Shown here one piece after another: positions 31,911 to 34,529 of a DNA stretch of 37,994 nt (its first letter is position 1; each line of letters begins with the position of its first letter). The position numbers were made by a program, and so were the translations under genes. The stretch is from Saprospiraceae bacterium (lineage in GTDB: Bacteria > Bacteroidota > Bacteroidia > Chitinophagales > Saprospiraceae): assembly GCA_027008645.1 (NCBI GenBank), contig JALVEE010000088.1, forward strand, positions 1-37,994. The letters run 5' to 3'. The notes under the pieces are model-generated. The model saw nothing but the letters and a program-made list of their open reading frames with translations. It did no database searches and had not been told where the DNA came from.

Positions 31911-32382
31911 TAGTACTCAAAGGTATCAGTTCTTTATGTTGTGTATTGTTGAGAGGTCAGAGACCTTCAACTCGAATGGGCTTCTTCTCTTCGTAAAACT
32001 ACGCTCCAACATTGAGTCAAAGTGTCTTCTACCTCTTGGCGAAAAAGCTTATCCAGTCGATAAGAGGTTAAAAACCTTTATCTCAAAGTGACAACACCTC
32101 TTGACTAAACATCTCTCAATGTACTGATCCAAAGCATCTTCTGCCACTTGGTGGAAAATATACTCAGGACTCTCTAATATTCCTGCTTTACTAATGACAA
32201 TCCTTTCTTGGTCATATATTTTAGAGAGTTCAGTCCAGCTGAACATAGGTATCAACTCAAAGGCATGTCACTAAAACATGGTTAAAAATGAATACTGTTT
32301 TTCTTGAAGGCATTAATTTATATACTTTTTATTTCCCCTTTTGTGTAACACTTATCTATTATTTGCGTATCTTGGTTATAGA
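31911..32382. other. Intergenic region with a diverged tandem repeat
   Basis: 472 bases between ppgK and the ECF sigma gene. Most of it is the diverged tandem repeat described separately. A 68-codon minus-strand frame (32049-32255, starting MIPMFSWTEL) crosses one repeat unit but has no recognisable product. Just before the sigma gene there is TATTATTTG (from about 32357), a -7-like box with a three-base spacer. Confidence 0.5.
31949..32158. repeat. Two diverged tandem copies of a ~100-base unit
   Basis: 31949-32044 and 32059-32158 align along their length with only small gaps: shared landmarks are AGAGGT near the start, CTCTT in the middle, and CAAAG..TCTTCT.CC.CTTGG.G.AAAA at the end. By eye about two thirds of positions agree. 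Read on the minus strand, both copies give charged peptide-like segments, but the second is broken by stops. This may be a decayed duplicated gene segment or a repeat element. Confidence 0.5.
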
Positions 32383-32931
32383 ATGCGATATGATAAAACA
32401 GATATTGATTATTTGATAGCTGAAAGTAAAAAAGGTAACAGCAGAGCTCAATTTAATCTATACAATAGGTATTGTAATAGTATGTTCAATACAGCCTACC
32501 GTATAGTTTATGATAAACAAGAGGCTGAAAACATAATGCAAGATGCTTTTTTGTCAGCTTTTACTAAATTAGATAAATACAAAAGTGAATTTAGTTTTGG
32601 TTCTTGGTTAAAAAGGATTGTAATAAACAGGTCAATTAGTCATTTGAGAAGCAGAAAAAATTACAATCAACTATTTGATTCAACTGCTATTTATTTGGAT
32701 GATATGATGCAGGAAAAGACTGTGGATTATACAAATACAGGAGTGAAGCAAATAATTGAGAATATGAAAAAATTGAGTGATAGTTATCGAACAGTGTTAA
32801 GTTTGAATCTAATTGAAGGATATAATTATGAGGAAATATCTGAAATACTTGGAATTTCTAATCAAAACTGTAGAACTATTGCTTCAAGAGCAAAGGCAAA
32901 ACTTAGACAATTGATAATTCAAAATAACTAA
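32383..32931 (+). CDS. ECF-family RNA polymerase sigma factor
   Basis: A 182-residue sigma-70-family factor of the extracytoplasmic type. Region 2 spans about residues 10-80 (SRAQFNLYNRYCNSMFNTAY, YDKQEAENIMQDAFLSAF, KYKSEFSFGSWLKRIVINRS). Region 4 is near 125-178 (LSDSYRTVLSLNLIEGYNYE, then EISEILGISNQNCRTIASRA). The ATG at 32383 gives MRYDKTDIDYLIAESK; a TTG start at 32341 would add 14 hydrophobic residues not seen in the family and overlaps the likely promoter. The gene for a membrane HEAT-repeat protein starts one base after its stop, in the position of an anti-sigma factor. Confidence 0.92.
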   Translation: MRYDKTDIDYLIAESKKGNSRAQFNLYNRYCNSMFNTAYRIVYDKQEAENIMQDAFLSAFTKLDKYKSEFSFGSWLKRIVINRSISHLRSRKNYNQLFDSTAIYLDDMMQEKTVDYTNTGVKQIIENMKKLSDSYRTVLSLNLIEGYNYEEISEILGISNQNCRTIASRAKAKLRQLIIQNN

Positions 32932-32932
32932 C

Positions 32933-33598
32933 ATGAGCAACTACATTAGTTTGGAAAAAATATTCAAAGAAAATAGAAAGGATTTTGATATAGAAAAACT
33001 TACTGATGGTCATGAAGAAAGATTCAAAGAAAAACTATTGAACTTTGAGGATAGACATAATAAAGAGAAAGTAATAAATTGGAAGTATATAGCTATTGCC
33101 GCTTCGATTGCTTTTATTTTGATGAGTATGGTAAGTATTTATAATTACGGTAAAAACAATGCTATATTAGCTTTGGTAAAATCTGATAGAAACATGTATA
33201 GACAGGATATGGTTTTGTCTATGATGGAGAGTCAATCTCCAAGCAAAAGACTAAAAGCAGTAAATTATATAGAAGAATATAGTGATCCTGATGATGAAAT
33301 TATATCAGCACTTATTAAAACTTTGTCTAGAGATGACAACTCCAATGTTAGGCTATCAACTGCATTGGGTTTATATAAATTTGCTTATAGAAAAGATGTG
33401 AGAAAGGCATTAGCCGAAGCGTTGATATATGAAAAAGATCCAAATGTTCAGTTGGAACTAATCAATATTTTAGTCGCAATAAAAGACAAATCGGCGATAG
33501 AGACTATGGAAAAAATGCTAGGAAAGAAAGATGTTCATGATTTTGTCAAGGATCAAATCGAAAGGGGAATAACGGAAATTAATTTCAAAAAGATATAA
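32933..33598 (+). CDS. Membrane HEAT-repeat protein, putative anti-sigma factor
   Basis: A 221-residue protein. The cytoplasmic N-terminus (1-48) contains LTDGHEERFKEKL, resembling the short GHxxRF motif at the start of many Bacteroidota anti-sigma-like proteins. One membrane helix spans about 50-70. The outer part (about 80-221) consists of HEAT-like helical repeats (LIKTLSRDDNSNVRLSTALG, LAEALIYEKDPNVQLELINI). The gene is one base from the ECF sigma gene, so it is probably its anti-sigma factor, holding sigma at the membrane through the N-terminal segment while the periplasmic HEAT repeats sense a signal. That mechanism is inferred. No classical zinc anti-sigma motif is present. Confidence 0.72.
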   Translation: MSNYISLEKIFKENRKDFDIEKLTDGHEERFKEKLLNFEDRHNKEKVINWKYIAIAASIAFILMSMVSIYNYGKNNAILALVKSDRNMYRQDMVLSMMESQSPSKRLKAVNYIEEYSDPDDEIISALIKTLSRDDNSNVRLSTALGLYKFAYRKDVRKALAEALIYEKDPNVQLELINILVAIKDKSAIETMEKMLGKKDVHDFVKDQIERGITEINFKKI

Positions 33599-33611
33599 TT
33601 AAATAAAGTTG

Positions 33612-33684
33612 TGAGTCTGCACCGGTAAAAGAGTTTTATCATATCATACGTTTTCTTGAAGCCACTTGGTAGACTCATTTTTTT
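33612..33684 (+). terminator. Hairpin with T run between the anti-sigma and DUF4097 genes
   Basis: TGAGTCT (33612-33618) pairs with AGACTCA (33671-33677), with CC/GG pairs continuing inside, and is followed by seven T. The loop is long (52 bases). It may be a partial terminator that lowers expression of the downstream gene, or the end of the sigma operon. Confidence 0.5.
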
Positions 33685-33719
33685 AAAAAAACCATATATT
33701 TAACATAAAAAAAATAATT

Positions 33720-34529
33720 ATGAAAAAAATGCAGTTTTTATTTGCAACTTTTATTTTTATGGCATTTACTCTAAATGCTCAGGACTTTAAAAGAGATTTA
33801 CAAGGGATAAACAGGGTGAAAATATATATGTCCGGTTCTTCTGACATAAAAGTAGTTTCTACGGATGATAATTCATTAAGAATCCATTCAGATGATTTTG
33901 AAAAACCTAAAAAACGAGAAGGGCTAAGAGCTATTTATTCAAATGGATATGATAATTCGAGTGTTGGCTTGTCAATTGAGGAAGAAAATGGGGACTTGAT
34001 TATTAAAAAGCTCAAACCTATGAAAGCGGATGATTATGTTTTTTATATACCGAAAGATATGGATTTTAGTTTAAATAATCTATTATCAGGAGATATCGAA
34101 ATCAAAGGATTTACTTCAGAAATAGAGATAAAAACTTTATCAGGTGATATAAAGATAGATGATGTGACAGGTCCGATTTTAGCTAATACGACATCAGGAG
34201 ACATCACAGTGTATTTTGGCAAAGTTGCACAAGAAAGTCCTATGTCCTTTATGTCAGTATCGGGTGATGTAGAATTGGTTTTCCCGGAGGATACTAAAGC
34301 AAATATGGTTATGCAAACTCTTTCGGGAACATCATATACCAATATTGATAATTTGGAGCTTATAAATAAGGAAAAATCTGAAATAAAAGGAAAGAATAAA
34401 GAAGATAATTATTTTGGAAATTACAATTTTAGCTTTAATGAAAATATCAAAGCGAAAATAAATGGAGGAGGTGTCAAGATTTTGGTAAAAACTATATCCG
34501 GAGATATCATTTTGAAAGAAGATGAATGA
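33720..34529 (+). CDS. DUF4097-type beta-repeat protein, exported
   Basis: A 269-residue protein with a signal peptide (LFATFIFMAFTLNAQ, cleavage near residue 20) and a DUF4097-like beta-helical body. The repeated strand motif is (L/V)SGD(I/V): LLSGDIEIKGF, LSGDIKIDDV, TSGDITVYFG, SVSGDVELVF and TISGDIILKE. Proteins of this group are periplasmic or surface-associated with unknown function, and in Bacteroidota they often follow an ECF sigma/anti-sigma pair, as here. It may be the target or sensor of that regulon. It ends 127 bases before the convergent pheS gene. Confidence 0.8.
   Translation: MKKMQFLFATFIFMAFTLNAQDFKRDLQGINRVKIYMSGSSDIKVVSTDDNSLRIHSDDFEKPKKREGLRAIYSNGYDNSSVGLSIEEENGDLIIKKLKPMKADDYVFYIPKDMDFSLNNLLSGDIEIKGFTSEIEIKTLSGDIKIDDVTGPILANTTSGDITVYFGKVAQESPMSFMSVSGDVELVFPEDTKANMVMQTLSGTSYTNIDNLELINKEKSEIKGKNKEDNYFGNYNFSFNENIKAKINGGGVKILVKTISGDIILKEDE

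Follow-up and report, generated by a model that had tools for sequence, protein, structure and literature searches.

What does a HEAT-repeat membrane protein do in the place of an anti-sigma factor, encoded directly behind an ECF sigma factor and ahead of a DUF4097 protein? The question is raised by a locus of a Saprospiraceae bacterium (assembly GCA_027008645.1, contig JALVEE010000088.1), of which a window of 37,994 nucleotides, the whole stretch of DNA analysed, contains three genes in this order on the forward strand:

32383 to 32931, forward strand: ECF sigma factor, 182 aa (Pfam and NCBIfam profiles)
32933 to 33598, forward strand: single-pass membrane protein carrying HEAT repeats at its C-terminus, 221 aa (Pfam HEAT_2)
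33720 to 34529, forward strand: DUF4097/Toastrack protein with a signal-like N-terminus, 269 aa (Pfam DUF4097)

The initial annotation had assigned the same coordinates and identities to these open reading frames, and Pfam agrees on each. The 182-aa protein carries Sigma70_r2 (1e-13) and Sigma70_r4_2 (4.7e-11), and only these regions 2 and 4, as is diagnostic for an ECF sigma factor. DUF4097 was found in the third protein with 2.1e-14 and 53.9 bits (cut-off 22.9), and the LiaG profile with 1.4e-12 and 47.4 bits, against a cut-off of 285. Among the matches listed (for the sigma factor, the best 25 of 107), no NCBIfam equivalog scored over its cut-off for any of the three proteins. The closest named relative, L003 (Saprospiraceae bacterium), shares 93% identity with the window HEAT protein. 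Distribution within the genus is patchy, with the HEAT protein present in 2/5 genomes. The genus genomes G077, G441 and G443 gave no match to it and have their ROK and pheS homologues on separate contigs; no operon-empty site was seen in them, the ROK and pheS flanks (≤1.5 kb) being free of any operon gene. Upstream of the sigma operon, positions 31930-32260 of the window belong to a dispersed imperfect repeat with 16 matches in its own genome, itself counted.

The middle protein was divided into three parts:

32933 to 33076, forward strand: residues 1-48 of the putative anti-sigma factor, a short, predicted cytoplasmic head with the motif GHEERF (N-terminal HMM scores)
33083 to 33142, forward strand: single transmembrane helix (hydropathy)
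33191 to 33598, forward strand: predicted extracytoplasmic HEAT-repeat domain (HEAT_2, HEAT-family C-terminal HMM, AlphaFold, PDB matches)

This arrangement of a short cytoplasmic GHEERF segment, one membrane helix and extracytoplasmic HEAT repeats had been proposed initially and is supported by hydropathy and charge. The sole hydrophobic segment covers approximately residues 51-70 (hydropathy peak 53-69), GHEERF lies N-terminal to it, and the helix is flanked by 4 lysine/arginine residues before vs 2 after; across 84 HEAT proteins, this bias is N-in in 73, equal in 6 and opposite in 5, which supports a location of the repeats outside the cytoplasm. HEAT_2 matched residues 124-209 (1.7e-14, 54.3 bits, cut-off 27.7), and AlphaFold, run on the window and L003 proteins, modelled a HEAT solenoid with pLDDT block means of 72-88 over residues 91-180, at an overall value of 59.5. 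Most fold matches in the PDB were solenoids of the alphaRep, armadillo or HEAT kind, and one of these reached E≤0.001; as HEAT_2 is over its cut-off and the best PDB matches include alphaRep/HEAT solenoids, the protein was classed as a HEAT-repeat protein. Helices of the head were modelled at residues 3-13, 20-24 and 27-41 with low confidence, nearly all at pLDDT <50, in a model of the protein alone. At E≤1, Pfam recognised no anti-sigma domain in the protein, zf-HC2 included, and DUF3379 stayed sub-threshold (15 bits, cut-off 33.2). With about 48 residues before the helix and zf-HC2 unmatched, the protein falls outside class I (ASDI/zf-HC2) as defined by domain content; its head is about 35 alignment columns shorter than long heads and aligns with the membrane-proximal, final helix of class I.

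The HEAT protein was matched in 39/150 family genomes, among them that of the window, and its profile matched 160/296 genomes of a phylum sample at E≤1e-6, many of them weakly, with head only or HEAT only, and most of those outside the gene-order set. This set comprised 83 distinct HEAT genes at 80 loci, mainly best matches, with L003 included and the window's own gene left out. The three-gene order, which the initial annotation had proposed to look for in other genomes, does recur there: an ECF sigma gene lies upstream on the same strand in 83/83 relatives and a DUF4097 gene downstream on the same strand in 81/83, the remaining two (L026, L123) being at contig ends. The HEAT gene overlaps the sigma gene or follows it almost directly (median gap -8 bases, ≤5 in 74/83, largest 192), and the HEAT-to-DUF4097 gap has a median of 13 bases (≤60 in 60/81, up to 265; 121 in the window). 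At least 62/83 operons hold two or more DUF4097 genes; the window has one. Judged by gene order, sigma-HEAT-DUF4097 is a conserved operon, spread over many families of the phylum. In three loci two complete operons adjoin each other; they share a strand in L111 and are divergent in L110 and L121.

Most relatives have a longer cytoplasmic part than the window protein. Zf-HC2 scored over its cut-off in L012, one of eight HEAT relatives in one Pfam test, and in L106 (43.6 bits), L117 and L111, all three of which had been chosen for their zinc motif; the motif, Hx3Cx2C, occurs in 7/83 relatives. The earlier statement that no known anti-sigma domain is present thus holds for the window protein and fails for these four relatives. 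Because zf-HC2 occupies the same place in the four, and because of the charge bias, the HEAT membrane protein is very probably an anti-sigma factor, which probably holds sigma inactive until an event outside the inner membrane. It might instead be a co-activator or scaffold that shares the operon, with sigma controlled mainly by its own synthesis, as the lack of a detected anti-sigma domain in the window protein and a head model mostly at pLDDT <50 would allow; in view of the zf-HC2 heads at the same position in relatives, and of a head type that tracks the sigma type across families (see below), we regard this as very unlikely.

Short heads, in which only about 48 residues precede the membrane helix, were found in the HEAT proteins of the window, L003, L122 (the same gene as L011), L094 and L104. 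A short-head profile matched 38/198 genomes at E≤0.01, and the 30 loci retrieved with it contained 3 of the known HEAT short heads, 17 members of a second, helical family, 2 longer proteins and 8 weak matches of other kinds, some FecR-like by eye. The helical family (L130-L136, L138-L145, L147, L148) consists of proteins of about 180 aa with a short head, a membrane helix and a conserved helical C-terminal domain. An ECF sigma gene lies upstream in 17/17 of its loci, and the downstream ORF encodes an exported beta-repeat protein with a signal-like start (by eye) in 16/17; in L147, the available downstream flank lacks such an ORF. At E≤0.01, a DUF4097 HMM matched the partners in L133, L140, L144 and L145, and four helical-family partners scored 32-50 bits against the DUF4097 HMM of the HEAT operons. 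For the four family members examined, neither Pfam nor NCBIfam gave a match over cut-off, and searching the PDB by sequence with the short-head family returned chance-like matches only (best E 0.028). The helical family is apparently a second, unnamed anti-sigma-like family of Bacteroidota. The two longer proteins, L151:1339-2988 and L155:442-1722, match the short head weakly and have sigma factors inside the window's short-head clade; OMP_b-brl_2 (Pfam) was found in L155, whose architecture is Dma-like, and not in L151. In the window's own genome, where the loci of 30/38 ECF matches were searched, the window's own included, the only GHxxRF-like partner besides that of the window was a 77-aa ORF on the opposite strand in L060.

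The affiliation of the short-head HEAT proteins was assessed part by part. For this, the 17 helical-family proteins and a set of long-head HEAT proteins were divided behind the membrane helix and turned into separate HMMs for the N- and C-terminal parts; neither set included a short-head HEAT protein. The N-terminal part of the window protein (head and membrane helix) scored 60.3 bits against the helical and 13.1 against the HEAT family, and its C-terminal part 153.8 bits against the HEAT and 1.6 against the helical family. The other four short-head proteins behaved alike, with 37-53 (helical) vs 8-18 bits (HEAT) for the N-terminal and 88-149 (HEAT) vs ≤2.4 bits for the C-terminal part. L095-L097, HEAT proteins with shortened heads, stay with the HEAT family (28-46 vs 9-12 bits), so shortening alone does not yield this result. 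The window DUF4097 protein scored 194.5 bits against the HMM of HEAT-operon DUF4097 proteins and 12.0 against that of YGN-repeat partners, and the DUF4097 partners of all five short-head proteins group with the HEAT family.

Trees were calculated after removal of eleven near-duplicate rows, which were also left out of the motif counts below. The window sigma factor groups with the helical-family sigmas and is split from the other HEAT-operon sigmas with a support of 98 in a tree of 96 rows, and of 100/100 in a careful 38-row tree, in which 16 of 68 other HEAT-operon sigmas were kept. By AU test, a single clade of all HEAT-operon sigmas, a group picked after seeing the tree, was rejected (p 0.022), and a position of the window sigma beside other HEAT-operon sigmas was not (p 0.509), a value that does not fix the direction of the head/sigma exchange. 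In the HEAT-domain tree, two short-head proteins stand beside long-head ones with supports of 97 and 96. Four groupings were considered there in AU tests: all five short heads as one clade (p 0.164), two others (p 0.249 and 0.158), and a fourth that is already a branch, with support 62. As no grouping tried was rejected, multiple independent head swaps, a reading suggested by this tree, are not claimed.

The initial annotation had also raised the prospect of a shared promoter motif before the sigma gene, and a conserved motif is indeed present there, as seen from hexamer enrichment in both sigma clades and from block conservation relative to L003:

32344 to 32371, forward strand: candidate ECF-type promoter of the sigma operon, TGTAAC-N16-CGTATC (hexamer enrichment and conservation vs L003)

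Hexamers were counted in the 200 bases upstream of the sigma genes, for 22 rows of the short-head clade and 68 other rows (L095-L097 among the latter), with the caveat that kinship among the loci inflates such counts. In the short-head clade, TGTAAC was the most over-represented hexamer (13/22 upstream regions; shuffle mean 0.98), and TG[TC]AAC occurs in 20/22. In the other clade, GTAACC came first (47/68) and TGTAAC second (49/68; TGTAAC shuffle mean 3.38). The next base separates the clades: TGTAACA is present in 13/22 short-head regions vs 1/68 of the others. Window and L003 differ at one base in the block made up of the motif and the bases up to the start codon, though the sequence further upstream diverges. 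The end of the candidate -10 element is 11 bases from the called sigma start codon, which would leave a very short leader; an alternative sigma start, TTG at 32341, would overlap the candidate promoter. In L134, L104 and L147, the 5' end of the motif is too near the called sigma start (-7, -19 and -27), so that either the called starts or the role of the motif must be wrong there, and upstream of sigma in L122 and L094 the motif is absent. The strict pattern TGTAAC-N16-CGTATC appeared in 0/100 shuffles, which is not an independent test, as the pattern was derived from the window site itself. A scan of the whole own genome returned 1 match to the strict pattern, as did the reversed control, and is uninformative as to a regulon. 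Taken together, the enrichment and the clade-specific next base point to an autoregulated operon whose promoter variant goes with the type of sigma factor.

The window protein therefore looks like a hybrid, in which head, sigma factor and promoter type are of one family and the HEAT domain and DUF4097 partner of the other; one HEAT-DUF4097 sensor module is found behind two sigma/anti-sigma head types. Its head could alternatively be a shrunken class I domain of the HEAT family, in which helices 2-3 were lost in place with no swap. This would agree with the alignment to the membrane-proximal class I helix, with the AU tests that leave the short-head HEAT domains as one clade (p 0.164) and the window sigma beside other HEAT-operon sigmas (p 0.509), and with an hhalign probability of 97 between the HEAT and helical family profiles, over window residues 16-167 (the head and part of the HEAT domain). 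We nevertheless judge it unlikely, since the five short heads score 37-60 bits with the helical N-terminal HMM vs 8-18 with that of the HEAT family, the merely shortened L095-L097 still score with their own family, sigma factor and promoter variant side with the helical family as well, and one clade of all HEAT-operon sigmas was rejected (p 0.022, post hoc group). On account of the hhalign match, the two families that would have contributed to the hybrid may themselves be distant kin; their C-terminal HMMs do not cross-match.

The gene at 33720-34529 is the sole DUF4097 gene in its own assembly at E≤0.001. Signal-like N-termini were seen by eye in 24/25 DUF4097 proteins, so the DUF4097 proteins of the operons are probably exported. 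A fold search with the low-confidence model of the window's DUF4097 protein gave no match at E≤0.001. The gap before its gene contains a further element:

33612 to 33684, forward strand: intergenic hairpin followed by seven T, which may act as a partial terminator or as a leader element ahead of DUF4097 (conserved vs L003)

Within this block, 68/73 bases are the same as in L003 (by eye), in diverged surroundings, and one change in the stem preserves pairing (G-U to A-U, by eye); the z-score of the fold, -1.64, is not significant. No second full copy was found in the own genome, and an Rfam search of the block gave nothing over its cut-off. By eye, TGTAAC is absent from the 121-base gap. Given the length of the gap and the possible terminator hairpin, co-transcription of DUF4097 is less sure in the window than in relatives.

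HEAT solenoids are typical protein binders, and DUF4097, encoded downstream of HEAT in 81/83 operons and, like the HEAT domain, extracytoplasmic by prediction, might be the ligand of the solenoid, such that its placement in the envelope frees HEAT or its accumulation triggers sigma release. As a plain regulated target would co-occur equally well, and as more than one DUF4097 gene is present in at least 62/83 operons, the window having one, we hold this role to be possible, if rather doubtful.

Several known systems resemble the locus in part. With CnrY (class II, marked by a pair of sigma-wrapping helices), the window protein would have a short helical head in common, as far as the low-confidence head model goes; to our knowledge, CnrY is without a HEAT domain. 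With class I anti-sigma factors (ASDI/zf-HC2; e.g. RsiW, RseA, RskA, ChrR) it shares the place of a membrane anti-sigma gene directly after that of an ECF sigma factor, and the HEAT relatives L012, L106, L117 and L111 also share zf-HC2; it differs from them in its head of about 48 residues with some 35 long-head columns missing, in the unmatched zf-HC2 and in the HEAT solenoid as sensor. According to passages of PMC7406223, helices 1 and 4 of class I contact sigma4 and sigma2, as do two CnrY helices, and ASDI domains under 50 aa were dropped from that study. Such contacts would be compatible with a short head in which the pre-membrane helix is retained. The Dma family of Bacteroides (Dma1 and Dma2, with the ECF21 sigmas Das1 and Das2), as described in part of PMC13088901, likewise has an N-terminal sigma-binding part, one membrane helix, an extracytoplasmic part, a cognate ECF sigma factor and an extra operon gene; by these descriptions it is set apart by a disordered tether and C-terminal beta-barrel, whereas the 221-aa window protein ends in HEAT repeats. 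DUF4097 also stands beside an envelope-linked regulator in those Lia/PSP systems that have a Toastrack (DUF4097) protein, for instance LiaG (excerpts of PMC11237479); in the window this regulator is an ECF sigma pair and not LiaRS; PspA, PspC and LiaF are not among the three window genes. Toastrack, including DUF4097, was predicted to be intracellular in the excerpted text of Ravi et al. 2024 (PMC11237479), and the signal-like start of the window protein runs against this. HEAT and anti-sigma both occur, in unrelated places, in the part of PMC3174227 consulted. Our literature search, which most subscription papers lay outside, found no paper on a HEAT anti-sigma factor or a sigma-HEAT-DUF4097 operon.

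We consider it likely that the locus as a whole forms an autoregulated operon of ECF sigma factor, transmembrane anti-sigma factor and exported partner, with HEAT-sensed release. Sigma would be kept at the membrane by the short head of the middle protein, and the HEAT solenoid would sense an event outside the inner membrane; candidates are a ligand, misassembly of an envelope protein, and the DUF4097 partner being lost or present in excess. By a change of shape or by proteolysis, the signal would weaken or destroy the grip of the head on sigma. Freed sigma would then transcribe its own operon, DUF4097 included, from TGTAAC-N16-CGTATC, and the DUF4097 protein would act in the envelope, with possible feedback.

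For only 6% of Bacteroidetes ECF sigmas is a class I anti-sigma neighbour given in passages of Wu et al. 2020 (PMC7406223), so that, going by this figure, much of their control is unexplained. We tentatively suggest, as an idea that may well prove wrong, that Bacteroidota build envelope ECF switches from exchangeable parts, in which a cassette of promoter, sigma factor and short head, the head belonging to a single class that would be widespread and still without a name, is combined with varied sensors (HEAT, helical, beta-barrel), the HEAT and helical sensors being followed by an exported Toastrack-like partner that works with the sensor, and the window being a hybrid of two lineages. If true, this would explain part of the 6% figure (as excerpted from PMC7406223). 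The short head would add a second, testable class of anti-sigma heads in Bacteroidota, and the hybrid, with the same sensor and partner behind two heads, would offer a clean comparison; it hints that such circuits may evolve by part swapping.
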